Shown in pieces: positions 3,401 through 64,000 of a stretch of 64,000 nt of DNA. Under the pieces are notes generated by a model that was not told the DNA's origin, did no database searches, and was given only the letters and a program-made list of their open reading frames with translations. Positions within the stretch are counted from its first letter, which is position 1; each line of letters begins with the position of its first letter. This DNA comes from Trichuris trichiura. Taxonomy: Eukaryota > Nematoda > Enoplea > Trichinellida > Trichuridae. The stretch is from positions 1,922,001 through 1,986,000 of the forward strand of contig JBAJFE010000038.1 in NCBI GenBank assembly GCA_037903355.1. Direction: 5' to 3'. The translations under genes were made by a program, and so were the position numbers.

Positions 3401-6400
3401 GTTTGACCTGTCTGTAAGTAAATTTCAAAATGCCCTACCAGAGAACGGATGAACAAATTGTTAGAGAATAAGTACGGAACAATCGATACCGTACGTTTCG
3501 GAACTGCTCTTGTTCCGTCGTCAGCAGTGTAAGGGAGCTCTCTTGACGGAACAAAAACAGTCCAGAAACGTACGGTGTGCAACTGTTCTGTATTTTCTCT
3601 AACAACTTGCTCATCCATTCGCTGGTAGGGCACAGTTTGATCAAACAGGTGAAACCCGTGAATCAAAAAACCAACCATGAAACAGCCTAAGTCTGTTAAA
3701 AGAGACCCTGTTTTTTCTTATTATTCTAATGAAATATATTTTTTGTAAACAGGATGAGCTGGACAGCATGACGCAAAAGTTGCGACCGTCACCGCCGTGC
3801 AAAGTTCTGTACGTGGCGCCTAATATAACCGGTCTTGTGGTTGCATGCACGCTAGCACCCGATGTACCGATATTGGAATGCTTTGGGCACGCAGCATTGG
3901 CTAAAGAATGTAGAACCAGGGTTAAAGGTGGTATACCGCGACCCCATGTTTTCTTGGTTAATAATTTCAAAGTCGGTGACACATCAAGCGTTAAACTCTG
4001 TTTGCGATTCATGGGCGAGGACGACCAATGGATGCAGCACGTTCGCAGATCATGTCATCCAAACTCAAAGGTATGACGTCGCTCCTTTGCGCCCTTTTTC
4101 ACAGCTACTATTTTTGAATAGTTTCTTCGTACAGTATTTGTCCTGTTAAAAATGGAAGTCCGTAGCTTTTGGGCCGCGCGTGACCTATCTTCAGCGGTAC
4201 TAAAATTAATGCCATTAATTTACATTAATTCTAGTAGCGCCGAGGACGGATCACGCGCGGGCCGAAAGCGGACTTCAAAATTTTTTTGTATTTTCAACTG
4301 GATTAACTCTGTACGAAAAAACAATTCGAACATGAAAATATATGGCCCCGTACCAAAAAGTTATATTTTCAAACCTACTATTCTTTTCTTTTTAAAAACA
4401 GATCTCCGTTATTGTTGGCAAGAAAGGGCTTCGTTTCTTTCTTGTTTCCACCACTAAAATTGAGAAAGGTGAAGAAGTGTGCGTACCTTTCGACTACGAC
4501 TTCCGCAAAAGGTGAAGGTTTATTTTGTCGAATGTTTACTACGCCTTTTTGTGCCGATTTAGTTCTGTGCAAATCACATGCGCTTGCACTTCGATCCACG
4601 AGACTGCTCGCGATCACGATTGCCCAGTCGAGTTGTTCAACAAAGAGCTGATGGCAAGTAAAGCTCGCAAGAAGCAGTCCTCAAAAATATTAGACAAACA
4701 CAGACCGGGCAAAAGAAAAAAGAATCGTGCAATGCCGGCAATTGACTGGAATTCGAGGTTCATCGACCAACATAACTCTATCACTTAGAGGCTGTCTTAG
4801 AAATTACGCTTTTTTACAGACGAACCGCGTCGGCAAAAGTGGATTCTGGCGACAGTAGTCGTTCCGACAATGAGCCAAAGCCAAGAAGAGTGCGAAAGAA
4901 ACATTTCGAGTTGATTCAATTGCAACAGAGTAGCTATTTCGAAAAGTCGGGAGAAGCTAGCGAAGGTTCAGTCGGTCATCCATCTTCGGCTGATTATTCG
5001 AAAAGCAGTTCAAGAGAGGAACGAAAAATGCAGTTCATAATAGAACGCATACAGCGCATGGAAGACACAGTACAGAAAACTAGGAGGAAACGCTCAAAAA
5101 AAGTTTCACTGGACAAAGATTCAACCGATCAAAGTCTCATGCCGACGGATAGTTCAGATAGGGAAGGTGGAAAGTCGTCTGCTTATGTTGATGGCGGACG
5201 TTTCGTCAAGGCAGAAGCGCCGCCCGAAAGTGCACTTCTAATGGATGTATGCAGTGAAGGTAGAGTTCGACGCAAGGTTAGCTCACACATGAGTAGCGTA
5301 GAGGTTGCTGAGTTCTCCGACTGTATTCAGAGACAATCCGGCGAATCGATTGAAAGTGACTCTAAGGAGCAGTCATGTCAAGAACAGACGACGATTGTAC
5401 CGAATGAAGGAGAGGAAGATGATCGAAACGAAAAAGTCACTTCCGCTTCACCTGCAATTTTTTCGACCGACAAGGACTCGCAAGATTCCTCATCAAATGT
5501 GGTTTGTTTTTGCATCCTTTGTTAGTACGCTGTTATTAAGAATACTTATTTTTTTCTCAGGCTAGTTCGCGAAACGCAATTGGCGTTATTTCTTTATTGG
5601 CATCGGCGGCCTACTTGAACAACTGTGACAGGGAAGCAGCAGCGGCGCTGAATGCGCCATCCGATAATGTTGTTGCTGAGAAAAGCAAAAAGGTGAGGAA
5701 GATGTCAATTGAAGAGTACAAAAGACTGAAGCGGTGCACCTTTGAACCTGGAAAAAGCGAACAACTGGCTGACTCCGCTGCAGGCGATTGCAGACTTGAC
5801 AGATCAGAACTTCCTACGCTCCAAGTGAGGCCATCCTTTTTCCCGTCTTGCACAGGTAGACCGCCTCGCTTATTTTTGTTTTTGATAACTGTGCACGCAA
5901 AATGTTTTCCTTTTGTTAGATGAATCGCTGAAATCTGTTGGTAGCATTCCCTCTCTTAAGCTATTTTCATTAGAAGAACACGCCGCCAACGGAAACGAAG
6001 ATACTCCTTTGTTTAGCAAAGAGAAAGGGGTAAGCAATCTAAAGAATTTTTATTAGCGTAAGCATTATTTTGTTCTTTGGGTAGCCATTACTCTTCGTTC
6101 TCTTTAAAATAATAATCGCCTGCAGGCCACAAGTAAAACGTTAAACATCTGCTGCTTAAGCGCGTGTGTAATGTTTTCTTTTCAATTAAAGATAATTTTT
6201 GAGTCTTACTTGATCTCACTTATACCTTTTCCATTTTTCTTTTGCCGGTTTAGTGTGGTCCCGGTTCGGTTATGTTAATGCTAGTCAACGTTTTTAAAGA
6301 ATAATTTTACATGGTACCGACGGAACGAAGCTTTTGCACTAGGTGGATTCAATCCTCTGCGCAAAATAGTGGTGGTGCATGGATGGCGATACCGCTCTCA

Positions 6401-9400
6401 AATTTCGATTGATTCGCTAGACATTTCGTCAGCTTTTTCGGTTTTTTGCAAAAACTTTTGAGGTTTGCAACCTGTTCTTTGAAATAACGTTTATTGCATA
6501 AACGTTAGGTTTCGGAGCTTTCGGGTCACTCCGGAACCCGTCATCGGCGAAACGTGTGCCGCCTGTAGGGTCGGTCTTCACGTTAGCAAGCCACTCCATC
6601 TGACCAACTTTGGCGGAGACGTCAGCTGTCAGCTCTGTCTTGAGCCATCGGCCCTTGGTCCCACCTAGTCAGTCAGACTTTGCAGCGAGCACCCAACCGA
6701 CCTTCCACGACGGCAACCAGCATTTTCGGTTTGCCATTCTTTAAGACTATCTGCAGGATATCTTGCAGTTTAAAGTTTTAGCTGTGCTGTGTAATCTTCC
6801 ACTCTTCTGTAGCATTGTAGTACGGTAGAACTTGTGTGCGGACAGGAGGTTGCTAGTTTTATACCTGTTCGGTAACCTCTCCGGTAGCCTTAGTCCGTCT
6901 TTCTTCCGTATAAACGGAATGAACAAGGTGTTATTTAAAACGCTCTTTACGTGTCTTATCTCATTTTCAGGATATTCTTAAGCTTTCAAACCCAGCGCAA
7001 TGCTATTGCTCTATATGGATGAATTTTGGACGACGAAACCTGCAATGCAGGTGTTCTCGCATTTTCACTGTTGAAACGTGTTTGTAGACAGTTTTCTCGT
7101 ATAAGTCCCCACGGTGATCAATCTGTACCGAAAAGGTATTCTATTCTGGTGGAACAGGTTATATGTATGAAGAATATTCAAACGATCTGGGAGAGTTCTT
7201 TCTTCTACTATTTTTGTTAACGCAAGTACGTCTCTCCATTGAGGTGTCCTTCTGTAAGCAAACCAATTTTTCTAGTCATCCAAAAAATATTTTTGCTAAG
7301 TCTGGGCGTAAACAAAACGTAATGACATCCTGTGGCGTAATTGATGTAACTGTGCATTCATAGGTTTTCCAAGCGAACAGTGGGAGAAGTCTAACGACGC
7401 ATCCTCATGCATTTCGCATTCAAGCATGACGAAGCAGAGTAGCTTCTACGGCTCTCATTTCGATTTTAGAGTATGAATGACCGATCGGGTTTGCAACGTG
7501 AAGGGAACGGTTGCGGTGGACGTAAGGAGGGTCTTGGAACGGCTTGTAAACCGTTTTGCGTGGTCCAGTTGATTTCTTCATTATTTTTTTCATTTATTTT
7601 TGCAGAACCTTACAAACTTACTAAAAATTAGCGCATTACGTATCCTTAATGATTCTGCGTTTTTGTTTCCACGTAACAATGTTTACATTTATAGCTTTCC
7701 TTTCCGACACTGCCCAAACTTTGCTTTATCATTCATTAGTATATTAATACATTTTAGCAGGTCAATTCGGACGCATGAATTGCTTTGAATGCTTGATGTT
7801 TGTTTTTTTCTGTTTTGTTCCGATTTCCTATCAATCTATAATTTTACCAAATAGGTTCGTTGACAAGTTTGAACATTAAGCACATTTCTTTTAGTAACTA
7901 TCTGTTTGCATCATTCCATCTATTGCTCAGCTGCTGTGCATTTTAAGTAGCAGATAGGAAACATTTTATTTCGTCGACTCATTGTCTGTTCAAATATGTT
8001 AGGCAGCCAATTTTTCGTGTACTTCCTTGAAGCAGATTTCTCACGTTTTTTTTCTTTGTCACTGCAATTGTTTTAAATAGTCTATAGGTGTAATGCATTT
8101 TCGTAGCCAAGTTTTATTTGATCCGACAAAAAGTTAAAGCCCATTTTCATTTTCCTCTCCTTTAGCCAATAGTCATTCGCTCAAATTGTTGTTATTTCAT
8201 TGCAACCAGATGCTAAGCTGCTTGATGTACAACACATTGTTGGTGTCATAAGTAGAATTTAGCCGACGGATGCATTTTCCTGCTTTTTCCATATTCTTGT
8301 AGATTGCCTCTGTTAAACTTTCCCAAGTAATTAATGTGTCGTTTGCTGTCAAGTTTATTTCAATGTTGTCATTGCATTGCCTATTCGGATCGGCAGCTTT
8401 GAGGCATAACTTGCGCGTGCGTCCACAGGTGGAGTGGAGAGTGACGTTGACGATATGTTCGTTGTCCCTTAAAACCAGTTACGGCAGTGACTTTGTTTTC
8501 GGTAAACTTTCTCCTAATCACTGTTCAAATTTTGTTGTTCTAACCAGTTTTTTTTCACGACAGTTATTTGCCAGTTTTTCTTTTATATCTCAACTAGTCT
8601 AACGCAGTGTATGTTTTCAGATTTATCATGTCACGTGCGTATAAACTTACACGTTGCTTACCTCTTAAATAATACACGAGATTTCGTAACGGATGTGTAA
8701 ATTTTCATTTTATCAATTACTTACATAAGCGATGTGATTATTACGCATTTTTTGCTGTACCACACGCACTAACACTGTCATATTGTTTGTTTTATGTAAT
8801 AATGTGTCCAAGTATTGTATCGTTTGTTTATCAAAAAGTTTTGTTTAAGCCAAACGCAGAACCCGAACCTGGTGACGAACTGAACATACACGTCAATAGA
8901 GGTGCGCTAGCAGACAGACTGGACGTGATGCGGCCATTGTTCGGTGTCCAGTGTAAGGAAGAAGAGGCACAGAATCCTCCGCACGAGGCTCAGCGTGCAC
9001 CTCAACAAAATAACTTTACTGCATATGGGCCTGGATCGTATTATCCAACGCCGTTTGGGAATGGCATTGGTGGTCAGTTTGGCTGCTTCCCTGCGTATAA
9101 TCCATCTTACGCCGCTGCCACTCCTTGTATGCTTCCGTTCGGTTTCTATTCTCGGGTACCTCCGCCCCCACCACCACCACCACCACCGGCGACACTACCG
9201 CCAGCGTCAATTGTTGGGACAACTGTTCCACCAGTGCAACATATGCACCCAGCGGTGGTACCGGCGGTTGTGCCGCCAGGCTACATTGGCAATCTTGACT
9301 ATTTGGTCATGTTTTCCGGCACGGCTGCCGCGGCTACAACAGCTGTTGCGCTAGCCGCAGCCGACCAAGCGGCTGGACAAAAGCAGGCACCCACAATTGG

Positions 9401-13577: not shown

Positions 13578-14254
13578 TTCTAGCCAGCTGAAGCAACTTG
13601 AAAAGCGCTGAATGCGATCGGATGACTACCTAAACTGAAGAATTCAATAAGCTTTTTACCGCTCAACTTCGCTGACACGTTTACTAAACAAGACCAGCTC
13701 GAAAGAGAACTTAAGGCACAGTGCCTACAGCTGCATTTGCAGGTACGACCTTTATTTGCACTTGGTTTTACTTTTTGCTAGACAAATTGATTCTTGATAA
13801 AACATTTTAAATTCCTTAAATTACTTCTTATTTTGAGCAATAGTATTTATTTGGGCTGAATTGGCAGTTTTAGTTACGAAGGAAGCATTGCAACAGAATG
13901 CACAGACTAATCATATTAGATTAACGATGAGCTGGAAATTCGGACATTGAGATTTAATGAATTTACATCGCTTAAGTACAGTTGCTCATGCAATATTAAG
14001 TTGGTCCTACTATGCAATACTTGATTCTCTCGTTACTGTAGTCAGTATTGTTTCGACTAAAATTGTAAGATGCTTCTGCTTCGCTTTAGCCGGTAATTTT
14101 TTCAAACCTTAAGGTGAACTTTGTTTGCTGTTGGTCTTGGGCAAGTAGTAGAACGCGTCGCGGACTTTTTTGGTCTTTCACATCTTAACTGACCTGTTGA
14201 TTTGCGCTGTCTAACCACGGTTGCAACTTCACTTCGCTTTATCACAGCTTATCG
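13578..14254. promoter_or_regulatory. Shared upstream region between NEDD8 (-) and PICK1 (+)
   Basis: The two start codons point away from each other across this 677-bp stretch, so it must supply both promoters. There is an acceptor-like TTTATCACAG at about 14239-14248 just before the PICK1 ATG. It could be a trans-splice site or the end of a 5' intron. No TATA box or other element stands out. Confidence 0.4.
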
Positions 14255-16100
14255 ATGACGTGCGCTCGCGAATTGGAGACGGACTTTTTTTACGAAGAGG
14301 ACAAATGGTACGCTTCGTTGTTGCCTTTTATAGAATGGCTTTCATTGCCCTCCTACGGTTTCAGCGGCATGACCACGTCGTCTGCATCGGTGACGCTTCA
14401 AAAAGACGACGGCAACTTGATTGGCATCAGCATAGGCGGTGGTGCTCCTTCTTGTCCGTGTGTGTATCTTGTACAGATATTTGAAAACGGATCTGCTGCC
14501 GACGATGGTTCTCTTGAGGCGGGAGATGAAATTGTCCGGGTCAACCGTGTCAACGTAAAGGGCCGCACACGAAGTGAAGTTGCTCGTATGATACAAGCAT
14601 CCAAGGGTAGCGTGACTATTGATTATAATAAGCTTCACGCGGATCCAAAACAAGGAAAAACGTTGGATATTGGTATTTGGTGACAAAGTTTCTCCATCCT
14701 CCGACTAACTAATTGCATTTAGTGCTTAAGAAGCTTAAGCATAAAATTGTGGAAAACATCAGCTCTGATACGGCCGATGCTCTGGGAATGAGCCGTGCTA
14801 TTCTATGTCACGGTGCGTGCTGCTTTAATTCTGAACTTTGTCGTTTAACTATTGGTTTCCCGGTGGCAGTTTGTATGTATAGTGTACAGTCAAAGTTCCC
14901 CGTAAATTGTAAACTGCTTATTCAATGGATGCGACGGTAGTACTGATTCCTCTTATTTACGTGCAGATTACAATTCTTTAGAATTAAGTGTTTGCCGCTT
15001 TCTCTGTGGTACTTTTGCTGACGATTCACGAACTAAGTTCTTGCGATATTATCTGCCTTGCGATGTTTCATTCAAACGGTTGTTCGCTTTATTAGATGGT
15101 CTAGTCAAGCGACTTGAAGATTTGGAAAAGAATACGGGAGTCTACAAGGGCCTTATGGACCACATTGGCCGACTTTTAAAGTCTCATGTGAAATTAGCTG
15201 AAGTGTACAAAGGTAATCCGTTTCCATTTCGCCGTATGCTTTTCAATGTATCGTTCGTTTTAGACTTTGGAGATATATTTTTTGAGATTGGAAGCCACGA
15301 GCCACAGGTCAATTCAGCCGAAGCGTTCATGACTTTCGGAGAAGTGCACAGAAATATGGAAAAGCGTGCTCGCAAACTGCTGGAAAATCTGAGACCAATG
15401 ATCAGCGATTTAAATACGTATTTAAATAAGGCCGTGCCGGACACACGGGCAACGTTGAAGAAGTATTTGGATGCTAAATTTGAGTATTTGTCCTACTGTC
15501 TAAAGATAAAAGAGATGGACGACGAAGAAGCTGCCGTTGCCGCTATGCAAGAAATCCTTTATCGCGTTGAGACAGGCAACTATGAATACAGGTTTGCCAG
15601 GTTGATTTGCGTCAACGCGTAGTAATGTAGAATATCTTTCCCCGCAGACTTCTGTTGCGGTGCCGTCAGGAGGCCAAGAAAAAATTTGCCAAGCTTCGTT
15701 CGGACGTTTTGGTGAAATTGGAACTTTTAGATCAAAAGAGAGGTCGCTAATTCCAACGTAGTATATTTTCCTTGATTAGCCAGTGTCCGTGCTACTTTTA
15801 GTGCAAGATTTGGCATATCAATTGCATCGATTCGTCACCGCTATTGAAAAGTACCATTCCGGATGCAAGGAGGACATGGAGCCCACGCGGAACCTATTTC
15901 CAATCGACGTTGACCTGTCTTTAATAGCCTTCGACTACAATCCTTCCGGTCAACTACCAGCGGATGGCGAAGACGAAGACGAAGAAAAGGAATTGGAAGA
16001 ACAACAGCGAAGAGTCGTAGACGAAATTGCTTGCATAGACTTGGGCCCATCGGATGGGGAAAAACAAGAAACTGTTGTGTCAAATTTAGTAACTTTCTGA
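14255..16100 (+). CDS. PICK1: PICK1, PDZ and BAR (AH) domain adaptor
   Basis: PICK1 binds membrane-protein C-termini and protein kinase C through its PDZ domain and curves membranes through its BAR domain during receptor trafficking. Exons are 14255-14307, 14365-14672, 14723-14812, 15096-15212, 15264-15591, 15648-15742 and 15802-16100, giving 429 aa (human 415). The N-terminus has the family's acidic YEEDK motif. The PDZ domain begins VTLQKDDGNLIGISIGGG and includes GDEIVRVN and VTIDYNKL. The BAR part includes DGLVKRLE, EAFMTFGEVHR, DLNTYLNKAVPDTR, LDAKFEYLSYCLKIKEMDDEE and YRVETGNYEYR. The tail is strongly acidic (EDEDEEKELEE), as in vertebrate PICK1. The start at 14255 is the first ATG after an acceptor-like site; the first 7 residues are uncertain. 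Confidence 0.95.
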
Positions 16101-18511: not shown

Positions 18512-18683
18512 ATGCTCTACCGAAGGATGGATGAACAATTATTAAGGAAAATTCAGAACAAGAACACTTATCGTTCGTAGCTTTCGGGACTAATCTTATC
18601 CCGTCCGTCGTCAGCGATGATGGTAATGGTAATGACATTACCTCGGTTAGCACTGGTTGTAAGGTCTTCTACGGCTTTTCCCG
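18512..18683 (-). repeat. Repeat element copy B (same family as the 3431 foldback arm)
   Basis: It begins with GCTCTACCGAAGGATGGATGA, contains TTATTAAGGAAAATTCAGAA, and then the hammerhead-like core. The same order of motifs is found in the left arm at 3431 and in the next copy at 18722. It is not a foldback here but a single arm. The outer limit on the right is approximate. Confidence 0.65.
18582..18614 (-). ncRNA. Hammerhead-ribozyme-like core (copy B)
   Basis: On the minus strand: CTGACGA, a 5-nt extra segment, stem GGGA/TCCC around a 9-nt loop, GAAAGC. The stem bases differ from copy C 220 bp away yet still pair. It lies in the same orientation as copy C. Confidence 0.5.
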
Positions 18684-18721: not shown

Positions 18722-18890
18722 ACTGCTCTACCAACGGATGGATGAGCCGTTATTAAGAAAAGTACAGATATCAACGCACTCAACTTTTTTATTGTTCAAA
18801 GCTTTCGGAACGCTCTAGTTCCGTCGTCAGTGAGGTGGTGGTTAGCACTGTCATTACCATTCCTTATAAGACCGTTTGCGGGCCGTATAG
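18722..18890 (-). repeat. Repeat element copy C, tandem with copy B
   Basis: Starts CTGCTCTACCAACGGATGGATGA, continues GTTATTAAGAAAAGTACAGA, then the hammerhead-like core and GGTTAGCACTGTCATTACC. Copy B has the matching order in the same orientation about 210 bp upstream, so B and C form a diverged tandem pair. Confidence 0.65.
18803..18830 (-). ncRNA. Hammerhead-ribozyme-like core (copy C)
   Basis: On the minus strand: CTGACGA, one C, a perfect stem GGAAC/GTTCC around the 6-nt loop TAGAGC, then GAAAGC. With copy A this is the cleanest core in the window. Stem III and stem I pairing in a single unit are weak, as in minimal hammerheads that work as dimers. Confidence 0.55.
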
Positions 18891-23388: not shown

Positions 23389-23487
23389 ACGTTCTTGCAC
23401 GCGTATACCGCGAGAAACTCAAACAATTGCACTCTAGTAAAAAAAGAATAACGAATGCAATGAAGGCCGAGCTCGTTTTCCACTTCT

Positions 23488-40696: not shown

Positions 40697-43600
40697 ATGA
40701 AGAATCAACCAGCAGATGATGATATTGACGAAATACTGGACGAGCTACCAAAGGACACTATAATGTTCAATGAAGATTCAGACCTGCCAGAAAGTCCAGT
40801 AGCAAGTCCTTCAGTATTGGTGACTCGCACCAAGTCTATGGATATGGAAATGCAAGTGCCTAATATCAAACTGTACCAAACAGAGCTGCTCAAAACGTGT
40901 TCATCGCGCCCCAGTTTGACGGATCTACACGAAAATGTTGAATATGTAGATATTGAAGAGCCGCCAGAACCTGGAGATGGCAACATTTTTGAAGAACCGG
41001 TAGGGTATGGCCTCTTTAAAAATTTCTGACACACTGTTGATTAGGTAGGGTCAGATGCTAATCATCCGGTAAACGCAGTGGGTGCGTTCAAGCCGCCAGA
41101 TGCAAAAGTGAAATTTGGCTGGATTCGCGGTGTTTTGGTTCGCCCCAACGTTTATCAATAATGTTATTCGGTAGTTATGTTTGCATGCTTTGCAGATACG
41201 ATGCATTTTAAATATTCTCGGCGCAACTCTGTACCTCCGTCTAGGATGGGTGGCTGGCCACGCCGGCATTGCTCTGGGCACTGTCATCGTGTTATTCAGT
41301 ACACTTATCACGACACTTACGGCCTTGTCCATGTGTGCACTATGTACAAACGGTGAAATAAAAGGAGGTGAGTAAGCTATTTTGCGTTTTTATTGTTTTG
41401 ATGATTTCGCGTTGTATCGATGCCTATGTCTTGTTGCATACGCAATACCGGGTAACTGGTATCCATTGGCTTAACATCTGCTTTTCATGCACGCAGTCGA
41501 TTGGCGCAGTACTTTTGCTTCGTCCCAGAAATAATTTAGCATGTAATATTTTAAAGGGTCAAATTTTTTGATAAGTGTCGTCTATTGGCGTTGAAAAAAA
41601 TTTGAACGGAAGAATCACTTGTGTTGAGAAAGCGATTAACTTTAGTAACAACGAAGGACAATCATTAATTAGATCAGTGTTTCTCAAGGTCAGGGTTGCT
41701 AGGCTCCTCCTGCGAAAGTTTCCGAGTGTTTGGGCCCCTAACTCTGATTAGTCTATTTCGAGCGCGCTGATTGGCCGGAAGAGAGGATGGAGGGTAACCG
41801 GGACGTTATAATGTAGGTGATGCACAAAGTTCTGTGGGGAAAGCGTTTCCCGGATAGTGTGCCGAACACTTACTTTCTCACCTCCGAGTCGGCTGCCCCC
41901 ACCCCCAGGTCCTCCCTTCCAGCCAATCAAAATTGCGGGGCGCAACAACTCGCAGTTTTCTCTTAGGCAGGAGGCACAATACCTAATCCGCAGGCTGTAC
42001 CTTCCTGTGCACTCCAACACGATCGCCCAGATGTGGCATATGCCCCCCCCCCACAGCTCAAAAGCGTCCCTAAGGGCCTCCTTGACGATTTGGGCCTCCG
42101 GTGGAGCACGTGCTCCACCGTGAGAATCGCTGAATTAGATTCTTCATTCCCTGATAACAGAAAACAACAGTTTCTACTTTGAAAATGAAAAGTAAATATC
42201 TCTAGCTTTCTCCTGATCACTTGCGAAATTCAGACGGTCGCTTAAATAGTATTTTAGTTGGTTCTGACACTTTGCTGTAGGTTGCTCTATTGTTCAAAAG
42301 CTTTCATGCTTTCAGCCAGAGGGTTTACGAGCAGTTCCTCTGGCTGAGTTGTATTCTATGTCATAAAACTGTTTTGGTCTCACTTAGCAGATGTTCACGA
42401 ACTATCTAGCAAAGTAGACATTATTTTGGTTCTCATTTTTAAGGTTGACTACCCACAAAGTGTATGTCGTGACTACGTATGTAAAATTCTTCTTCAAATA
42501 CCATAAACTAAAATATAGACATATGAAAGCTTCGCGAACCGTTGGTTTTCGGGCAATCTTATTTTTGCACAGTTAGTGTTTCAGCCAAAAAAAAAGAATT
42601 TTTTTTTCAGGCGGAGCGTACTTTATGCTGTCCAGGTCACTGGGACCTGAATTTGGCGGAAGCATGGGCATGATTTTTGGCCTAGCAGATGCAACCTATG
42701 CTGCCATGAACGTAATCGGTTTCGCTGAAACAATCAGCTCCTTTCTAACAGTGAGTGTAAAATTGCGGAAAGTATGAAATTAAGTCTTCTCCAAAATTGA
42801 CGTGGACAAACATGCAATGGTCTCCAAGAGAAAACTACCGTTTTTCTTTATTAACAAGAATTTTATTTCTTGCCATAATTCTTTTTAATTGGTTTCCACT
42901 TGTTCTTTAACGGGATTAGAATTCATATAAAGTTTCTACCTTTTATTACAGATTTCCCGTTTTTCATCAGAAATTTTTTCCACGGAGCTTTCAGCCCTAA
43001 CCTTGAGCCGTCTTCAGCGCAAGCAACCAAACAAACAAAACTATCACAAAACCTCTCGTTGCCTTCGCCAAGGTGATTTTGATGTCACATTGGGCACGCG
43101 GAGTCAACCTCAGTGAGTCAAGGGTCGACTCGACAGGAAACCACGTCGGCTGACAATACGGAAGAGCTCTTCAACAGCCACTCCTGGCGAACACAACGAA
43201 AAGTTATGTGATAGTTTTGTTTGTTTGATTGTTTACGCTGAAGATGGCCCAAGCTTGGGGCCGAAAGCTCCGCAGAAAAAAATTCATATGAAAAAAGGAG
43301 AAATACTGCAATAATTATGACAATTCACCGCTCAGGAATCGTAATGCATCCTTCTTGATTCTTAGTTTTCAAATCTTTTGCGTATATTACATAAGATGCT
43401 CTTATATTGTCACCATTCGATGGATAAGTTCTAGACAAAAAAGTATACTGTTTTTGCTTAAAGAAGCATTTGTAAATGGGAAAGCGATATCAAAGCTCTT
43501 GAAGCCTTCATTTCAAATACGCTGTATAAGCGACGTCGTCGTTTGATCCCTGCTATGACTACCCTGCTTTCTTCCTTACGTCGTTCTTCTAGCTATAAGT

Positions 43601-46600
43601 AATAGTTGCGGTTGAACGCTGGTGACTGGAAAGCGAACTAAAAGCTTGAGTTCATTTAAAGTTTGGTGCTCAGCTCCTTACGTATAACTATGGTTTAAGG
43701 AGGTGGGCATTAAACTTTAAACTTTCAGAAAACTTAAACTGGTCGTTCAGTCGCCAACGTCACTAATTGTGACAAATCCCTACTTTGACTCTTGAGGAGC
43801 CTGAAACAACATCTCATTAAAGCTTTGGTGCCGCATTTTAAAACTTATAGAACAGCGTGATATCCAGCGCGACCGCACTCGAAGCTTGTGAGAGGGAAAG
43901 AGAAATGATAAGATATGCCTGAGTTATAGATAACAACAACAAGCAACGGATTGAAAACGTTTACTTTCGAACGCACGCTACACTGTGATGGTGGCAGTCG
44001 AAACAGAATGAAGCAAAATTAAAAGCGTTTTCTCGTTATCGAGTTTGGAAAAGGGTAAGGCAAGGGTAGACGCCAATTAAAAAGTCATTCACCACTTGTA
44101 TGTATCATAAGTTCCCGTGAATTTACATTAACATGTAAAGATAAGTTTTAGAAAACCATTTGTAAACTTAAGGGAGAAGCATCGAAAGTGTAGTAGTTTG
44201 AACCTTTAACATTTCCTAATTGAAAGTCAGCATTTCTTTTTGCAGTTTTATTTGACTTTTGCAAATATTCTGCCATTTTTAAATTGATAAACCTGCAAGG
44301 TTGCTTCTCTTATGTAGGCATTAATAAATTTTCCGATTGAGTACTGAAATCCCTTTGTTCTGAAAGTGTTTGACTTGGAAAACCGAAGTAGCCATTCGAA
44401 TCTTATCCATAAAAGCAAAGCAATTAATTACCTAATTATTAGTTACTATTTCCATCATAACGCCTTCGTATTAACATATTTACTCATTCAGTAAGCGTAT
44501 TAATTTTCCAAAACGCGTAATTAATGGAACTTGTACTGGTTGACCACCGACGAATTAATACAAAACTAAAGCGAAATATGATCAACGGGTAGCTATCCTG
44601 ATGTAATCCAGGAAAAGAACACAGTTCACAACAAGTGTTATGATGGATGAACATTTTTAACGTTTCTTGTCCTCACTCAATTCTGTTAATAAGACGAAGC
44701 TGCTGAGAACTCGCGAATAATATTAACAGTTATTCTCAATTCAAGCAGGTTTACTTTGAATTTAAATTCTGGTGAAATTTAATTCCTGGGCAAATTACAC
44801 ATCCTTCGCGACAAGCGTTATTCGTTAACGTGTAATTCTTCAGAACGCACCTTGTTTAGTTATGAAAAAGTTTTTTAATTACCAGAGTTTGAGCGGCTCA
44901 TTTCGCTTTGTCGTCAGTGCGGCGAGAAGGATGGATGACGACGCAAGATGAGCCTCGCCAACAAAACGGATCTTTATAACAAGTGAATGAAGTGCATTCG
45001 GAAAACTTTTATGCTTGCAAAAGAGAGTAACGAATTAAGAAATCAAATGAACAGAAAGAAAACTTGAATTTTTCACTACAACTGAACGGTGCTTCACGGC
45101 AAAATAAACTAGCGTTTCTTTAACGTGGTAGTATTCACAAGTAGATTTTACAGGCGATCATGTTTTATCCACCCTTCAGATAAAGCAACAGTAGTAACTC
45201 CTGTTTTAGCAAGCTGACCTGAGCATTGTTGATGGAGGAGTTAACGATATACGCATAATTGGTGCTTGCACTCAACTGTGTCTTTTCGTGCTGGTGATGA
45301 TCAGCGTCGCTTGGGAATCAAAAACTGAGCTGGCACTTTTTTTCATCATCACCATCTCTTACATAACTTTTTTGGTGGGCACTTTTCTTCCTCCCTCAAA
45401 GGAGCAAATGGCTCAAGGAATCACAGGTTATCGCTGGACCACATTCAGTGAAAATATGCTACCATTATGGTCTGGAGAAACTATTTTTTCCGTCTTTGGA
45501 ATTTATCTTCCTTCAGTAACCGGCATCATGGCCGGTGCTGGCATATCAGGAGATCTGGCAGAACCAAACAAATCAATTCCCAAAGGTACTTTACTTGGAA
45601 TCGCTGTAACTACTGTTCTCTACTTATCTGGCATATGGTTGACCGGTGCAACGTGCATCAGGTGAGCAGTGATGTATATCTGAGGCTGGCTAATTAAGCT
45701 TATTTTGTTCAGAAATGCTTCAGGAAGTTTAGATGACTTATATAATGGGACAATCGCAGCATGCGCTGAAAATTCAACTTGCCATCATGGACTGCTCAAC
45801 AGCAACGATGTGATGCAGCTAGAAGGTGCCTTTTCCCCTCTCGTGACAGCCGGTATTTTTGCCACCTGTCTCAGTTCCTCACTCACCTGCCTGGTCTCAG
45901 CGCCAAGGACGTTTCAGGTACTATTCTTATTAATACATGGTGTGCCGCTTTCTTTTTCTTTAAAAACATCTACTAGGCCATATGTAGAGATAGACTGTAT
46001 CCCTACATTAGCTTTCTTGGAAAAGGCTCTGGAGCGCAAGACGAACCCAGACGTGCAACTGTTCTTGTTACCTTAGTTGGACTGATGGTTATCTCCATAG
46101 GTAGTAAGGTAGGAAAGCAATAGAAAATATTGTATGGCGTCACATGCAGGAGAGCTGAACTCTGTTGCACCATTGATTTCCAATCTTTATTTGGCCTCAT
46201 TTGCTTTGATCAATTATGCCTGCTTTGACGGGTCGTTGGCGCAGTCTCCTGGATGGCGACCAGCTTTCAAGTACTACAACATGTGGCTTTCTTTGCTTGG
46301 CGCTCTTTTATGCATAGCTGCCATGTTCATTCTCAGTTGGGGCATGGCGTTGGTCACAGCTGCTGTTATTAGCACCCTCTATGTCTACTTGTTACACCGA
46401 AAACCAAGTAAATTCTACATTTTATGCGTTGATATGCTCTAATGTTCGACAGTATTACTTCTAGACGTCAACTGGGGATCCAGTGGGCAAGCATACACCT
46501 ACACAAGAGCTCTCAGAGATATGGTCACTTTGCTGACCACAGAAGAACATGTGAAGAACTACCGTCCGCAGGTTTTGGTCTTCACTGGCAATCCTGTGAG

Positions 46601-49721: not shown

Positions 49722-50681
49722 CATGGTAAGCAGTTCTATTTGCTCCTGTGCATTGTCTCGTCGTAAGCGGTTGTGGACGTGAATTGGATAGACATATATT
49801 TATGTCGCTGCTTTCCCAGCTGCTAACCCAATGCCGTACATGTTTCATATCATATCAATGAACCCTGTCAATCACGTCATATTCACGCATGTTTGATTTT
49901 AGCATAATGACAACTTTGTTAAGCCGGGTATATTCTGCTCAACGTAAACCTTTGACCTCAGCAGGCATGCAACTTCAGCAAAGCTTGCTCTGCGGCATTT
50001 GGAAAGCACTTTGAATGCCGCGGGCGCTTACATAAATGGACATATGGCTGTTAGACATGACGATGAACGCGTTGCTTTTTCAAACTGCACTGACGCGATA
50101 ATCTAAAAAATTCTTTGAATTAGAGTAAGAATGCAAGTGGCATTGAACGCTGGGATCATGGTAAGACATACGTGAATATTCGGTTAAACAAAAGCATGCA
50201 TTTATTTGAAAGTACTTTGCTTCCATACAGATGTTTTTTGAAGGTTGTCACTCTCTGTGCTCTTAACTAATTACTAGAAAATTTACTGGTGATTGCATAA
50301 CCAACCAGCATAAAAGCAATATTATTGGGAAATTGAACTTGTCATAATGCATCCATAAAGGACATAAAATATAAGAAATAATGTAAAACACAGCGCAGAA
50401 CGTTAGACTGATGAAAGTGGAAACCTACCTTTAAATAATTTTAAACGTACCGACAGTGGCTCTGTTTTCGTTTACCTCTACCTGTTTACTTAACTGCAGA
50501 ATGGCTCTGAACACGTTCAGACAATTTCACTGCAAGATTAAAGAAACTTCTGCAATTACAGAAAATGCTTATTTACTAACGTGCAAAGTATCCGATGCCT
50601 TCTAATCAGAGGTGACTTGGCTTGAACGCCATGGTTCATATATCTGGAATAGTTGCTTTAGTTATATGATGACGTCTGATT
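49722..50681. other. Intergenic, nothing identified
   Basis: No supported feature in about 960 bp. Confidence 0.35.
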
Positions 50682-50757
50682 ATAATGCAAAAGTTTTATT
50701 ACGGAGTTATTTAACACATTAAACGGGAATAATTCCGTAATAAAACTTTTGCATTAT
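50682..50757. repeat. Perfect 24-bp inverted repeat (hairpin)
   Basis: Arm 50682-50705 (starts ATAATGCAAAAG, ends ATTACGGA) is the exact complement of 50734-50757, with a 28-nt spacer. It could be the ends of a tiny transposon or a recent inverted duplication. Directly after it, 50755-50797 resembles a 42-bp block at 4331-4372. Confidence 0.9.
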
Positions 50758-51611
50758 GAAAACATACGCTCCCGTACCAAGGAACCACATTTTCAAGACG
50801 TCTGATTAGGTATTTTTACCCTGTTAAGATTTTACTGATGATCAATAACATTAGTTTATGTCATATAGATTTTAATATTAATATTATACTGACCTGCTGC
50901 AAAGAAATAGCTGAACATACATTCTGAGAGTCCCTGACAGCAGAAATATGAAACAGAATAATTCAGAAAATTATAATAAGACAGGTGTCCAGCTTACTTC
51001 TAGCCGCATTTATCGATGACTGTTTGCGGTCTGAACATAATAAGATGGCAAATCCAGAAATAAATAAACGTCTGACTTGCAAGAAGTTCACAATAGCACA
51101 ATAAAATCTTGCGCTCTCCTGTCATATCTCTGTGCACATGTGAATCATTTCTTCATCCAGATAATTTGTCCATCAGCTTAAGATCAGATCTCATGGTATT
51201 ATAGATTTTATGATCAAATAACCATTACTTTAGCTAATAATAAGCTGAGACGAAAAACTGACGGTACTGGCACTTCAGATATGCCAAAAGCATCAGTTCG
51301 ATGTATTAATACTTGATGATTGCTATTTTAGCATTTTCATTGCCATTTTAGCATTTGTAATTAATGAGTGAATGCTCAGATAACAAGCTGCCACTTAAAA
51401 TGAAAACATAGTTCATATACGTTTGACATCCAAAATTTTTGGCGCATTATAATGGTTTATTTGTTTTATTTTATTATATGTTACTTCTGCTAATCTCTTT
51501 AAGCATATTTTACGAACTGGATTTTTTTATACTCTTATATGGACTACTAAAATTTTTTTAGTTCAATACTAATCTCAGAGCCTTGGAACGTAACACTTGG
51601 AGCGTGAGAGG

Positions 51612-51961: not shown

Positions 51962-52031
51962 TTTTCGTCTCGTTTACGCCTTTCTTGCACCTTCTTAATC
52001 AGGTGCAAGAAAAACGTAAACAAGACGAAAA
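51962..52031. repeat. Imperfect inverted repeat, about 31-bp arms
   Basis: The left arm runs TTTTCGTCTCGTTTACG to TTGCACCTT, and the right arm AGGTGCAAG to CGTAAACAAGACGAAAA, with a short spacer. It ends about 60 bp before the candidate gene at 52093. Confidence 0.8.
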
Positions 52032-57662: not shown

Positions 57663-57785
57663 GTAGGCTTGCTTCTTCTGCTAGCTTGCTGAATCAGATT
57701 ACATCTAATACTAAAATTAGAGTTAATTTCATCATATTACTAAAATTTTCATATTTAGGACGAATATGAGGAAAGGTTCTGGAGC

Positions 57786-57818
57786 TTTCAGGACTCCTCT
57801 GGTCCCGTAAACTCCAGA
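57786..57818 (-). repeat. Degenerate hammerhead-like trace (copy F) with a flanking 9-bp inverted repeat
   Basis: The GAAAGC side and a GGAC/GTCC stem are kept, but the CTGANGA side is disrupted by inserted sequence. GTTCTGGAG and CTCCAGAAC frame it as a perfect inverted repeat. It is a decayed relative, not a candidate ribozyme. Confidence 0.4.
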
Positions 57819-58007
57819 ACATCTTCGCTTACTAAGCAGGTGCATTGTAACAAATGCCTTGAATATGAAGACGCGCATATCTGCTGAGAAACATTCTGTT
57901 TCAGCATATTACAGTATTCAACATTTATGCGTTAGAAAGCACTATGAAAGTTACAATGAATAAGCACTTAGATTCATGCTCATTATTAAGTATCTGTATC
58001 TCTTCAG

Positions 58008-61000
58008 ATGGTCGATTGTCATGACCTGTTCAGCTTAAAGCAGACGATGGCATCTTGCGCAGACCCAGTTGATGCTCCATTGTTGAGGCAAAAAAGTGTT
58101 AACTTGTCACCTTTTGCTGAGACGGCTGAAGAAGCATCCACGGCGGACAAAAAGCGTAAGTCGTAAAAGCGTTAATAGAAAGCAGCCTCCTGACCCCGGG
58201 AGGTGTCTCTTCATTCATGTCACAAATAATTATTGTAATAAAGCGTTTCCGGTAGCCACGGCGATGGAACTCATGGTAAGAGTAATTTTGTGAATGCAAC
58301 ACTGCTCTTCCGTCCACCCTCCTTTGCTTTTTTCTTTTAAAATGGGTAGCCCTGTGGGACGATCGGCTGGGGTCTCCTTTCCCGGAAGCTCTCAGGACGT
58401 TGCTCTGTTTTGGCTGACTGAGTCAGCATTGGTTGTCAGTTGTTATGTTGAAAAACTTCCATAAATGATTCAACGCCCACTGTCCACCAAAACAGCCTTG
58501 GAAGGGCTGGAAGGTTTCCATTGATTTCCACGGTCGTCAATGGAAAGTTCTAGTCGTCTTCCTGCTCACAATGCGTGCAACTGGATGAATTAACTCTAAA
58601 AAGTGAAACACTTTTTACCAGAATCTCAGAATAAGGAATAAGAACGAGCTAACGCACGCTCTGTGATGTACATCTGACCCAAAGGACATCTGAGGACCGA
58701 AAACAGAACAGATAGCTCGCTGTAGAATACGACAAGCCAGTGGTGAACATAAGTTACATTTCAACTTATCATTGGCTTGTCCAGGAAGGTACCTAACTGT
58801 GGAACGCACATTCCAGCTTCCTCAGAAGCATTAGTGAACGCAAAAGAAGAATGTCCAACCAGTTAGCTTTCGTAAGGCTAAATTGGCAAAAAAGCCATTA
58901 AAACAGCAATCATAACAGTTAGTTATACAAGAGATTTTCACCGCTCTGACTATACTATGCAGCATGACGTCATTTATACGTGACGGGCACCTTAGCGTAC
59001 GGTAGATGAACAAGTTGCCGAATAGGAAATTCCTCTGCGAACAACCAATGAAGATCGCTGAGGGGAGGGAAACAGGAAAGAGCCAAGACGAGTCATTGGT
59101 CAACAGCAAGAGTTTGCCACCGATGCACGGCGGAAAGTATCAATCATGTTAAAGCGTTGAGCTTTCCTGATGCGCAACATTGACATCCCATTGTCACTGT
59201 TCGGTTGACTTGGCCCTCATTGTTCCTGCGGTGTCCTGATCATCAGTGCAAAGCAAGTCAGCGCCCATCCTCAGGTCTCCTCCTACTCTCCCGCCTTCAC
59301 CGGCGCGGGGTCCCTTCACCTTGCGTTCTTGACCGTCCATGAACACCCTCCTGCTGAGCGCCAACCCAATGAAAGCCTGTTCGATCATTATGGACTATGA
59401 TCAGTGTCGCAGTGAGTATACAGTTGGTCAAATAGCGGGTTGCGGGATGCGCACGAGTTAAGCGACTTCATTATTATTTTTCGCCCATCTCAGTCTGTCA
59501 CGCAGTAGCGCAGCCCAAGCGAATCAGCGTTCCGTTGAGCGTTTAAAGTGAATAAGCTAATCAGATTTTCGCGTTCGTCATTCTCCGTCGCTTGTCAATT
59601 GTCTCACCAATCGTCACTGCTCAGCATCTTGCGGTCAGCGCGCATATTCGTTGCTGCCATTAATGGTGATTGCTGGTCTCTCCTTTCATCTAATTGTCAT
59701 CATCATCACCAGTTAGATTCCCTGTTGTGTGGCTACCGCCTTTTTCCATGGTCGTTTGCATTTGCTGATCCTTGTTTCTATTCATCCCAAAGAAAAACGA
59801 GCTTGCATGAATGCTTCGCCTACCCTCATCATACGAACTCAGATGTGGCTGGATGACGTTTGGTAAAATGCGTCTATTTCTATGCACTCACTTTACTCCA
59901 TCAGCCAAACGAAAATCCGTTTATGTTCATTTCAGGTCATACTGGGGTCAACCAGCTTGGCGGTGTATTCGTCAACGGACGTCCGCTTCCTGACCATGTT
60001 CGACACCGTATCGTTGAGTTGGCAAAATCTGGTGTACGACCATGTGACATATCCCGGCAGCTACGTGTTTCTCATGGATGCGTCTCAAAAATCCTTGGAA
60101 GGTATTACTCTGCTTTATAACTTTACTTGCTAATTGCCGCAACCCAATCTATTCACCACGTAGTGTAAGGTCGCTTTAATTTGCCCTTCCGTTCAGTATC
60201 AGTGGAGAACAGAGAGGGTCAGTTTTAATGCCGCCCCTGTGCGGCCTCTGAGAGCACATTGTTGCTGCCCAGCTGGCGAGCTTGCTCGAACGAGCGCTAG
60301 AACAACTTGAGCAGACACAATGACCGTCAGTCATTTGCCAGCTTTGATGATTGTTTCTATGACCAATGATGGGCACCGTTTAGCACAGTAATCAGTTTAA
60401 TGGAAATGTCGTGATGTATCGCCGCTAATCATCACCTACAGTAGAGAAGCAGGCGAAATCTTCGATTTTGCTCAGCCTGAGACTTCCATCCTTAGCGCCT
60501 CAGAGTGGCATATATTTAACATCTGGAAAAGGCAACAGGAAGGGAGTCTGTTCGTTTGATTTGCCTCATGGAACTTTCTTTCTTTTTTAGGTATTATGAA
60601 ACCGGGTCAATCAAGCCTGGTGTTATTGGTGGTTCCAAACCAAAAGTAGCTACCAACAAGGTGGTTAGCGCCATTGCTGGTTATAAGAAGCAAAATCCCA
60701 CAATGTTCGCTTGGGAGATAAGGGATCGTTTACTAGCTGATGGTATATGCGACCATGATAATGTGCCCAGCGTTAGCAGCATTAATCGTATCGTGCGAAA
60801 CAAAACAGCGGACAAGGTGTCCACTTCCCGTGGAGCAGATATTCAGCATCAGCAGCAACAACCGCAAGCAAGAGAATCTGCACAGCCTACAGCTCAGACA
60901 GAAAATGGACACTCCTCAGGGGGAGGATTGCATTCACCCAGTCAGCACCCATTGTTACGCTCAGGCGGAAATTCTACAGTGCCAGCCAGCTTGGCATCAG

Positions 61001-61637
61001 CGTATGTAATAAGTCACACGCCTCAGTCAACTCAGGAGATGATCCAGTCAAGAGTTGGGCCCTACTCTATCAATGGGCTACTTGGCATCGAGTCACAAGT
61101 GATTACAGCCAAACCAAATGCCGGTAAGTTAAAATTGGCTAGGAGAAGTGTTAGACAGGTACGATTCAGATTTCAAAGCGCAATCATCCGTCTTTCGCTG
61201 CCCAACAATGGCTGATTCGAATGCGGTTAGTTTCCTGTTGTACGCGTAAATTTTTCTTAAATTAAATGCAGTCTTTTATGCTAACGCAGGGATGGGTGAA
61301 TCGCGTTAAGTTGGAGAACCCCTATGCGACAGTGGCTGCTGATATTGGGGCTCTACTTTCGGCCGGTGGAAGTTCTGCCCTCTTTCCACCCGCCTGCATG
61401 ACGGCGGCTACTTATGGAGATCACTTCAATTTAATGGCCAATGCTAGTAGTAGTGAAGCAAAGGTGTTAAGCAGCAACGGCAATATGGGCACAGCCTGCA
61501 GAACGTCGAGTAAGCGACAAGTTTTACAGTATGTTTATTTGCCGTCAGACGCAGGAACGCGTCACGGTCCAACGGTCTCTACAACCTCCTTTAATGCACA
61601 AACAAGCGGGCGAAGGTTCTTCATGACCATACTGTAG
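58008..61637 (+). CDS. Pax2/5/8-class paired-domain transcription factor
   Basis: Sequence-specific DNA-binding developmental regulator of the Pax2/5/8 group (nematode egl-38/pax-2). Exons 58008-58155, 59936-60101, 60591-61158 and 61290-61637 join in phase to 409 aa; an alternative acceptor at 61272 adds six in-frame codons. Exon 1 codes an acidic N-terminal 49 residues, joined through KKR to [19 protein letters not shown]. The PAI half has [16 protein letters not shown], where Q, R and H at recognition-helix positions mark Pax2/5/8 rather than Pax6. The RED half runs [18 protein letters not shown] to [14 protein letters not shown]. An octapeptide YSINGLLGI follows 77 codons later and recruits Groucho-type repressors in relatives. 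I find no homeodomain, even partial. The C-terminus is uncertain: a GTAAGC donor at about 61510 could lead to further exons. First-exon assignment rests on phase, not homology. Confidence 0.85.
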
Positions 61638-61896: not shown

Positions 61897-61902
61897 AATA
61901 AA
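61897..61902 (+). terminator. Candidate poly(A) signal of the Pax gene
   Basis: AATAAA 260 nt after the stop at 61637; a second, less canonical AATAAA-containing AT tract lies near 62130. Confidence 0.45.
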
Positions 61903-64000
61903 CAGGAAACATTCGACCTGGTCGATCGCTCGTTTCCTCACTAAAGGCGGCTGTCAGTCAGCCATTGTCTGCATGACTGGCCGTGAAACATCGACAAGGG
62001 CATCGAGATACTTTACGCAAATTTTTCCTAACGCCTTTTGACCGTCTAACTGTGCTTGCTTATAGGAAGTTGGAAGAAGTTAAGGGAGTTAAAGATTGTG
62101 TAAATAATAGTATACATCAGCAATAAGTATAATAAATTCAAAGCAACTCTGTCTCATTCCAACGCTGTACACTAGTGCAGCCAGGTTTCATGAATTAGGG
62201 GATTCTTTGTTTAGCAACCACTTTTCGTGCGTTCAACTTTTAACGTAAACTTACTTTGATAATCAACTTTGGCACGGCAAAACAGCTGTACGCTACGGCC
62301 TCAGTCAATTTTTTAAGAACATTTCTGTCATCATGTTAAGAAGCATTATTTTCTTCCAGCTGCGGAACATTGACCTTCAATTTATTGCCAAAGACATGGT
62401 CTTTTGTAATGGCACAATATTGTTCATCCTGTTTAGATACGGTTTTGTCCGTTTGTTAGTTGACAATGCCAGTAATGAAGGCGAAACGTTCAGCAAAAAA
62501 GACTGCCAGCCAATTCGTTGCCTGAGCATTTCCCTTTGGCTGCTTGCAGCGGCAACTCTTGAAAAGGCAAAGCAGTGCCTGAGTGGAATAATAATTGTTC
62601 AAATTATTCTCTTCACGTTGTCAAGTTGCTTAGAAACACGGAATACAAAAAACTGATCTTTTCTCGAAACCTAACGAGACTGCTTGTGTAATGTAACTTG
62701 TGAAATTCTCTTGATCAGGTAGGCTAAAAATTGGAGGGAAGGCAGTCAGAGCTTTCAAGCTGCTTACAGGCTCCCTCCTCAGCTTTTGGAAAGTCACTCG
62801 TTGCTACTTGGTCACTTCTCTTTGTGCCATTGAGGTTTTTCCATGTTTTGTGAACTAAATCAAATTAAGTTTCGTTTTCGTCATTAAGAATGAACAGAGC
62901 GAAACTTAAATTGCACTGTGTTGTTGTGATCAATTATGCTCTTCTTCGTAATATCAGAAGAACTCCCTTGCATCGTTTCATAGGCATACACATTCAGAAA
63001 AAATGTCTGCAAGGATTAAACCCTAGCGACTCAACGATTCTGAGCATTAAGGCTGCTGCACGGAATGGTCTCGAAAGCATTTTTTCCCCATTTTCTAAGC
63101 TGAACTGTTTATGTTCTGAGCGAACTTAAAAGATTGAAAAGACTATTTTGCTAAAGATATTACTACGAAACGCTTACAAGCAGTTTTCCTCCATATGTTG
63201 AGTAAGATGGTCAGGTTTCCTTTCTTTAGCCATTCACGTGAATGGTTTTCGCGAATGGTGAATCAATGAATTAGATGTTTGCAAAATATTGTTAGAAACA
63301 AGTTCATCTGGAAACATGAAACTCCTCCGCATCATGAGAGACTTCAGAAAAATAGCATGCTGAGCAAAAGTATTTCCTTTAGAATCCTTGCCTCATAAGG
63401 GCAAGTGAGTGTGCACATCAGTAGCGCACCAATATACTTCTCTATAGAAACTTTCTATGAAAGCAACGTCAGCTCATTAATTGGCAACATTCAGGCAGAG
63501 CTGAATGGAACAAAAGGGCTTTGCTGAAATCGCAAAGATCCAAAATTAATATTTCAAAGCCTTCTATGATTTGCTACTTCTACAGATGATTAATGCCATT
63601 TTAAATGTTGTGCCACTGGCAGCGTCATCATAGTCCAGTAACAAACAACTATTCTCTCAAGCCTAAAGTTTAATCTCAAAAAATGTTCCCACAAGTCTTT
63701 CGTTCACGCAAAGAGACGACCAGTTTCTTAGAAAAGCATTTTGCCGACTCGTTAGCATAAGGAACAAATGTGGCGCGCTTTTTTGCAGCTCCAGTGATCG
63801 AACAGGTTGACTATTCAACATGTTCAGCGAACCGAGTCTGCATGCTCAAACTCTTGAACGTTGAAACAGGCTTACGAGCGACTTGAAAAGCACTAGTTTC
63901 TGCTTGTGACGACTCTGACGTATCAATAGAATTTTTGATTAATCTTGGTAAATAATTCACATTGTCTTGATTGTGTACCGCTTGAGCGGTAGAAATGAAA
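61903..64000. other. Right flank, no gene identified
   Basis: Plus-strand open frames at 62333-62656 (107 codons) and 62890-63129 are unrecognised. The only structured item is the ribozyme-like core at 62753-62782. Further Pax 3' exons here cannot be excluded. Confidence 0.3.
62753..62782 (-). ncRNA. Hammerhead-ribozyme-like core (copy G, diverged stem)
   Basis: On the minus strand: CTGAGGA, GG, a short stem GAGC/GCTT, then GAAAGC. Core bases are intact but stem II is weak. Confidence 0.35.

Follow-up and report, generated by a model that had tools for sequence, protein, structure and literature searches.

The 64,000-nucleotide stretch of Trichuris trichiura DNA analysed here (the window) contains a short recurring motif, and the question it raises is whether this motif is a ribozyme and what carries it. 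The earlier note had listed seven places sharing CUGANGA, usually a pyrimidine, a short stem and GAAA, and had interpreted them as hammerhead-like. From sequence comparison across the source genome, we consider it very probable that the Penelope-like elements (PLEs) of that genome carry this motif as a type I hammerhead ribozyme lacking stem III.

Architecture of the motif and its copies in the window

The motif runs in the order stem I - CUGANGA - Y - stem II - GAAA - GC - U - H - stem I', with a stem II of about 5 bp and one constant pyrimidine separating the CUGANGA core (A9) from stem II. GAAA is followed by GCU and one base H, and the predicted cut falls after H17, before the 3' strand of stem I. 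Stem I, exactly 3 bp long in 63 of 90 copies, and the cleavage base belong to the motif and were absent from the earlier description; together with GCU they make the hammerhead interpretation, which our results support, exact. Because U16.1 and H17 abut the 3' strand of stem I, stem III is missing and has not simply been overlooked. Its place is taken, as in minimal PLE hammerheads, by a self-complementary tetramer, which is AGCU or, in another family, ACGU. The hammerhead core, CUGANGA with GAAA, is present in five window copies and in thousands of genome copies. A stem III in cis, sought by eye 3' of GAAA in the first loci, did not prove general, and a kink-turn or SECIS identity was considered and dropped after U16.1-H17 and stem I had been recognised.

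The earlier proposal of a search with Rfam hammerhead models was followed, and no family was reported, at gathering score or at E 10. RF00008 gave no match in the whole genome, and control genomes were equally silent. This is expected if stem III is absent; Rfam hammerhead models miss the copies described here.

Copies in the window were scored with a covariance model (R2) of 48 rows, all taken from outside the window. Six of the seven listed places match it, at 38.7-47.5 bits (E 5.8e-9 to 1.5e-11), and the letters lie where they had been placed, save at 43239-43267, which was one base late, the core starting at 43238. The copy at 3486..3530 (-; 46.5 bits, E 3.1e-11) combines stem I ACUG/CGGU and stem II GGAAC/GUUCC with GAAA, CGU and A17, and thus has the ACGU tetramer. 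At 6509..6553 (-; 45.0 bits, E 8.7e-11) we also see the CCGAUGA core variant reported before, flanked by a 6-bp stem I, GUUUCG/CGAAAC. The copy at 18572..18620 (-; 38.7 bits, E 5.8e-9), as aligned with a second model, R1, has 4 bases inserted between its core and its stem II, and that at 18793..18836 (-; 46.2 bits, E 3.7e-11) has stem I UCA/UGA and U at H17. The remaining two, at 42979..43023 (-; 46.6 bits, E 2.9e-11) and 43232..43276 (+; 47.5 bits, E 1.5e-11), occupy the left and right arms of a divergent inverted element at 42957..43298. A repeat search resolves this element into a pair of 114-nt arms with 83% complementarity, and one hammerhead in each arm faces outward; a query of 371 bases spanning the element finds 88 matches in the genome, its own place included.

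The seventh place, 62753..62782 (-), was rejected. Neither R1 (up to E 10) nor R2 (up to E 1) matches it, and the surrounding 46-nt stretch is no better folded than its shuffles, 172 of 200 being at least as good. R2 adds one clear decayed copy, at 4157..4200 (-; 35.8 bits, E 4.3e-8), in which G12 of GAAA is A and one stem II pair is broken (alignment with R1), and two weaker ones. These are a partial copy at 57782..57808 (-; 23.5 bits, E 1.7e-4, model positions 13-39), consisting of stem II and GAAAGCUC, and a marginal match at 4234..4281 (+; 15.6 bits, E 0.034), a decayed divergent partner of 4157-4200. A fragment at 50702..50796, palindromic and without a ribozyme core, is a piece of Penelope-type tail; two segments of L051, a PLE locus, match it at 94% and 92% identity.

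In the window, 5 places obey a strict rule of core, stem and GAAA, where 60 dinucleotide shuffles average 0.23 and never exceed 2; under a looser rule there are 8 places, with a shuffle average of 2.05 and a maximum of 5. When window copies are folded alone, at least 64 of 200 shuffles fold at least as well for five of the seven tested.

Association with Penelope-like elements

The relation to PLEs that the earlier note had inferred holds. There are at least 71 GIY-YIG matches in the genome, and at L051, a locus selected by its GIY-YIG match, independently of the motif, an 865-aa stop-to-stop frame joins RVT_1 (E 3.4e-10) and GIY-YIG (E 5e-5), so that reverse transcriptase and endonuclease share a single ORF. 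The motif core lies on the same strand about 140 nt past the ORF stop (4234 vs 4092). The motif thus lies in non-coding end sequence of a PLE that has both domains, as do minimal PLE hammerheads. The nearest named relatives of the PLE protein in one protein search are in Trichuris muris and T. suis; a search with a piece of P4-ATPase returned assorted animals. The earlier note had seen no reverse transcriptase in the window, and a tblastn search with the L051 protein (one query) likewise found no homologue there; among the 71 matches listed, the nearest GIY-YIG place lies about 3.7 kb left of the window.

Across loci, 93 copies were scanned, and removal of two chance matches (L025:1396 and window 37152) left 91 for later counts; nine overlapping loci were skipped in locus-based counts, scans and alignments. 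A Penelope-like RT/GIY-YIG ORF match lies within 800 nt of 13 of the 91 copies, and none was found within that distance of the other 78. Seen from the ORFs, 10 of 15 C-terminal ends are followed by a same-strand motif in the next 800 nt, 2 have a copy on the opposite strand, and 3 have none. The motif itself guided the choice of loci L001-L030, and L031-L050 surround motif matches or related ones, which biases its presence in these counts and leaves its orientation unbiased. At L041, the only locus where it could be placed, ORF homology starts some 100 nt past the ribozyme; beyond the motif, this locus has stops and a frame change that obscure the ORF start codon. Between ribozyme and ORF, an exact ACGG/CCGU marks a candidate second hairpin in 34 of 91 copies.

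The 72.7-Mb source genome holds 3,105 instances of the strict motif and 0 of the reversed pattern. We suggest that this high copy number arises because PLE insertion probably keeps the ribozyme and tail end even where most of the body is lost.

Predicted cleavage, pairing and structure

Two features of the genome-wide copies bear on function. At site 17, directly after U16.1, G occurs in 25 of the 3,105 strict copies, in keeping with the hammerhead rule that H17 is not G. Among 3,733 copies with A-N-N-U, 3,105 carry AGCU and 373 ACGU, together 3,478. With A15.1 and U16.1 only two bases apart, no stem III within one molecule is found, and a single copy cannot form one; two copies could do so by AGCU-AGCU or ACGU-ACGU pairing, in the manner of known double hammerheads. 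As stem III would arise only across two copies, cleavage should need two, for example as tandem units in one transcript, and would generate a 5'-OH immediately upstream of the PLE leader and ORF.

A footprint of such cleavage was sought at genomic ends with three nested patterns, which showed a gradual loss and no step at the predicted cut. The tail pattern occurs 167 times, preceded by GCUC in 148 cases and by GAAAGCUC in 132. Local alignments of genomic 5' ends had scattered starts, several at the GCU after GAAA and one at the cut. One window fragment has its first base, 50702, precisely at the predicted position, but it was discarded as a footprint, being palindromic and single. The missing step in genomic copies speaks against a role of cleavage in setting insertion ends. 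It would also suit a motif that serves the PLE RNA as a signal for protein binding or reverse transcription, conserved through recognition by the PLE protein and like a hammerhead core in appearance only. Such a signal would accommodate the extra pyrimidine's capacity to pair with G12, and the finding that ribozyme mutants of an Anolis PLE left in vitro insertion unaffected (PMC11167929). We nevertheless think it improbable, since it is not evident why a binding site should exclude G alone at site 17, and since the H17 rule and the occurrence of ACGU beside AGCU are what catalysis and dimer pairing need.

Covariation was assessed on copies picked by their sequence ends only, with inner pairing not required, which gave 46 distinct stem-loops. 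Stem II pairs 3, 4 and 5 form in 43, 41 and 38 of these, against means of 31.3, 28.8 and 32.1 and maxima of 39, 37 and 37 in 1,000 shuffles; the compensatory change in stem II described earlier is borne out without selection for it. In stem I, 23 of 27 copies form pair 3 (shuffle mean 10.5, maximum 18). Pairs 1, 2 and 4 are not above shuffles, as they hardly vary or seldom pair; the first two, each present in 24 of 27 copies, are too invariant for the test. A covarying stem II thus lies between A9 and G12, and stem I flanks C3 and H17, as in a hammerhead. RNAalifold, given no structure, recovers stem I (3 bp) and stem II, and adds a pair 14-34 in which the constant extra pyrimidine can pair with G12; this pair would compete with the active core.

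A second alignment, A1, retains 53 of 70 distinct motif strings. The 17 dropped were one false (L025:1390), one decayed (L029:1279), whose removal favours structure, and 15 resembling kept rows. Only copies with the core, GAAA and 4 or more pairs in stem II passed its source scan, and A1 further required U16.1, so that A1 and its pair counts lean towards structure: core and GAAA are invariant by construction and are not independent evidence, and the stem II pairing of 98.5% is inflated. Pairs changed on both sides (any change) number 6 in A1, matched by 140 of 500 shuffles. The shuffles of A1 and of the end-selected copies alike leave relatedness among copies in place. That relatedness, with the copies forming families and some in the window decayed (4157-4200, 18572-18620), would be expected if the motifs were relics of an ancestral PLE ribozyme, passively copied, with covariation only apparent and stemming from a few old families. 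This seems highly improbable to us, given that families with differing stems and flanks have H17 and a self-complementary tetramer in common, and that A1 shows six standard pair types at columns 18-30 and six at 4-44.

Least credible of all are non-autonomous retrozymes, short tandem hammerhead elements spreading as circular RNA: some copies are tandem (at L022, 218 bp apart), but the tandem repeats of about 150-400 bp and canonical hammerhead of animal retrozymes were not found, neighbours being mostly divergent (of 19 pairs within 400 bp, 13 divergent, 3 convergent and 3 tandem; within 4 kb in one family, 26 of 27 divergent among the first 100 of 167 places) and stem III absent, whereas animal retrozyme hammerheads, in the relevant parts of PMC7761336 and PMC7229834, are canonical type I with loop contacts and, in invertebrates, a stable helix III.

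Known relatives and biological significance

Minimal type I PLE hammerheads, to which we assign the motif, were reportedly treated by Cervera and de la Pena in 2014 and by Lunse, Weinberg and Breaker in 2017. Among published matches listed for Trichuris with Penelope, titles are nearly all infection surveys, diagnosis or treatment, and Penelope is probably a personal name; 'hammerhead ribozyme' and 'Trichuris' each appear once in a paper titled on a redox enzyme. Passages of PMC6155905 and PMC7761336 describe PLE hammerheads without helix III, and a passage of PMC6466107 states that double hammerheads need a palindrome in the stem III loop. As far as these passages go, the motif has in common with minimal PLE hammerheads the core, the lack of stem III, the position in non-coding PLE ends, a palindrome for pairing two copies, and dispersal in thousands of copies in animal genomes. 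The host lineage differs, the PLE protein here being nearest to Trichuris, and the constant pyrimidine between A9 and stem II is a candidate difference that may prove general.

The Anolis PLE Poseidon (PAc; PMC11167929) likewise has RT and GIY-YIG, repeated units, and a ribozyme whose stems I and II lie close to where the coding unit begins. That ribozyme required protein; its ORF starts at stem II and the cut falls 26 bp inside the ORF, in contrast to the roughly 100 nt at L041. Satellite hammerheads of newt and axolotl, in the part of PMC7229834 that describes them, also combine a weak stem III with a palindromic loop, and are efficient as dimers. They differ from the present motif in having a stem III pair with a tetraloop, loop contacts and 330-350 bp tandem repeats.

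This kind of ribozyme is already known from other animals; here it is abundant and uniform. The H17 rule and the two self-complementary tetramers show constraint at the positions needed for cleavage and dimer pairing, and a genome this small, with its many families and thousands of copies, offers a good test bed. One further idea, which we regard as unlikely, is that the constant pyrimidine after A9 acts as a lock, pairing with G12, extending stem II and keeping a single copy inactive until the pairing of two AGCU (or ACGU) tetramers, or the PLE protein by binding, frees G12 for catalysis. If so, the RNA would be cut only where PLE transcripts are tandem or multiple, and the ribozyme would serve the element as a sensor of its own copy state.

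Motif copies in the window and across the genome

All seven hammerhead-like strings reported by an earlier note on this DNA are present in the window, with the start of one corrected by a single base to 43238, and a strict core/stem/GAAA rule recovers five places there, where 60 shuffles of the sequence give 0.23 on average. Their treatment as one family holds only in part: a motif model trained on 48 copies, all from outside the window, matches six of the seven, and 62753-62782, which it does not match, is rejected as a member. The same model adds a decayed copy at 4157-4200 that the earlier note had missed, a partial copy at 57782-57808 and a marginal one at 4234-4281.

The decisive test of the motif's reality is a genome-wide scan with a backwards control. 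The genome that the window comes from (72.7 Mb in 62 contigs) has 1,556 copies of the pattern CTGANGAYGG, 8-26 bases, CCGAAAGCT on one strand and 1,549 copies on the other; the same pattern written backwards has 0 on either strand. If the window is typical, its ~7 copies per 64 kb extrapolate to several thousand genome-wide. Genome-wide, A9 is followed by a pyrimidine in 3,105 copies and by a purine in 49, and the pattern without this extra base is found at 31 places, some of them also in the purine list. Twelve of these 31 places are on two contigs, C60 and C61 (minus strand), mostly 7.4-8.2 kb apart; this series looks like an unrelated tandem repeat, perhaps rDNA.

Elsewhere in the window, a 70-nt near-perfect palindrome at 51962-52031 scores 45.5 and 38.4 bits for mir-3910 on its two strands, under the curated cut-off of 95, and is probably a foldback element rather than a microRNA. 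Animal-like open frames are visible by eye at 1949-5525, 14201-15622, 22260-26805, 45210-45665 and 60520-61215, with a PHD-type protein, a PDZ-BAR protein, a short-chain dehydrogenase, a P4-ATPase, a cation-chloride cotransporter and Pax as candidate identities; the P4-ATPase piece is backed by a homology search.

Pairing and covariation of the two stems

In an alignment of 53 of 70 distinct copies, 89.5% of cells in both helices pair, compared with 55.1% at the best slide of partners, and changes on both sides are seen in 63 cells, where shuffles give 16.2. Six pairs show any such two-sided change, an unremarkable number that 140 of 500 shuffles reach. Because the scan behind these rows accepted only copies with the core, GAAA and four or more stem II pairs, their stem II counts are inflated, and the test was therefore repeated on 63 distinct copies picked by CTGANGAYGG...CCGAAAGCT alone, which gave 46 distinct stem-loops and 27 distinct flank pairs.

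Stem II pair 3 forms in 43 of these 46 stem-loops (shuffle mean 31.3, maximum 39), pair 4 in 41 (28.8, 37) and pair 5 in 38 (32.1, 37), over 1,000 shuffles. The compensatory change in stem II claimed previously is borne out at the inner pairs, all three above their shuffle maxima in copies chosen with no requirement that these inner pairs form. In stem I, 23 of 27 flank pairs form pair 3 (mean 10.5, maximum 18); pairs 1 and 2, at 24 of 27 each, are too invariant to rise above the shuffles, and pair 4 does no better than chance. Without a structure as input, RNAalifold predicts stem I with 3 bp, stem II and a pairing of the extra pyrimidine with G12. Relatedness among the copies is not taken out by any of these controls. 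Stem I is exactly 3 bp long in 63 of the 90 copies measured and 4-6 bp long in another 12.

Hammerhead register and predicted cleavage

Past GAAA the copies have two bases, a U, one further base (C in 57, U in 17, A in 15 and G in 1 of the 90 copies with this U) and the 3' strand of stem I, an order that places U16.1 and H17, the predicted cleavage base, in the standard hammerhead register. Genome-wide, G stands at H17 in 25 of 3,105 strict copies. The tetramer A15.1-N-N-U16.1, found in place of stem III, is AGCU in 3,105 and ACGU in 373 of 3,733 copies; these two self-complementary forms make up 93.2%, the other 14 dinucleotides accounting for 255. A change from GC to CG leaves the tetramer self-complementary and so meets the need of a stem III made by two copies, with the limit that few events may be involved, since the ACGU copies listed have few stem II types.

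Judged by its sequence, the motif is a hammerhead without stem III and a predicted cleaver. Most likely, two copies would join through their tetramers into a double hammerhead and would cleave each other 3' of H17. Hammerheads of Penelope-like retroelements (PLEs) without helix III have been described (PMC6155905; PMC7761336), and double hammerheads are reported to depend on a palindrome and, in eukaryotes, also on tandem arrangement (PMC6466107). The Anolis PLE ribozyme requires protein for cutting and is dispensable for insertion in vitro (PMC11167929). Genomic counts of a tail pattern fall from 167 to 148 and 132 when it is extended upstream by 4 and then 8 bases; they show no step at the cut site, which argues against cleavage defining insertion ends.

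Association with Penelope-like elements

GIY-YIG matches number at least 71 in the genome, and 13 of these fall in open frames longer than 500 aa. At one fetched locus (L051), an 865-aa stop-to-stop frame carries RVT_1 and GIY-YIG, and the motif core begins ~140 nt past its stop; named Trichuris relatives (T. muris, T. suis) are 12 among the 120 proteins listed, at 38-57% identity over 45-86% of the frame. A 59-nt perfect inverted repeat puts a copy of the piece directly after GAAA at the frame's 5' end, so its first residues derive from the repeat. Across the fetched loci, a same-strand motif lies within 800 nt (to motif middle) of 10 of 15 ORF C-terminal ends and an opposite-strand motif at two; the three ends with no motif within 800 nt have 3, 280 and 452 nt of available room. 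At another locus (L041) the motif stands ~100 nt ahead of the first homologous ORF residue. For 78 of 91 copies there is no PLE ORF match within 800 nt.

Among the first 100 of 167 places listed for one family, 27 pairs of neighbours are no more than 4 kb apart. All but one (26) are divergent, with start-to-start spacings of 59-132 bp in 19 and 2.1-2.8 kb in four. We infer that close divergent pairs are insertions without their body and distant pairs longer copies. Some 3.7 kb left of the window in the same genome (G000), a GIY-YIG match at C11:1918190 sits between divergent tails at 1917678 and 1920503, 2.8 kb apart, and C11:1917678-1920529 fits the distant-pair picture as a longer Penelope-like copy.

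Within the window, 50623-50796 is palindromic, with two inverted Penelope-tail pieces (50702-50796) and several sub-threshold Rfam matches. A second small hairpin, ACGG/CCGU, lies 3' of the motif in many copies (for example window 43017(-) and loci L003, L006 and L017), often preceding AAUAAA, and one copy at L017 has ACAG/CUGU instead, a compensatory change; the hairpin is a possible leader or protein-binding element.

The kind of ribozyme found here is already known: minimal type I hammerheads, dispersed or within PLEs, are reported in their thousands from many animal genomes (PMC7761336). A literature search at title level (Trichuris with hammerhead or Penelope; hammerhead, Penelope and nematodes) returned no whipworm hammerhead report. 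An extra base after A9 is known from a chrysanthemum viroid, and the extra pyrimidine may be a general feature of PLE hammerheads.
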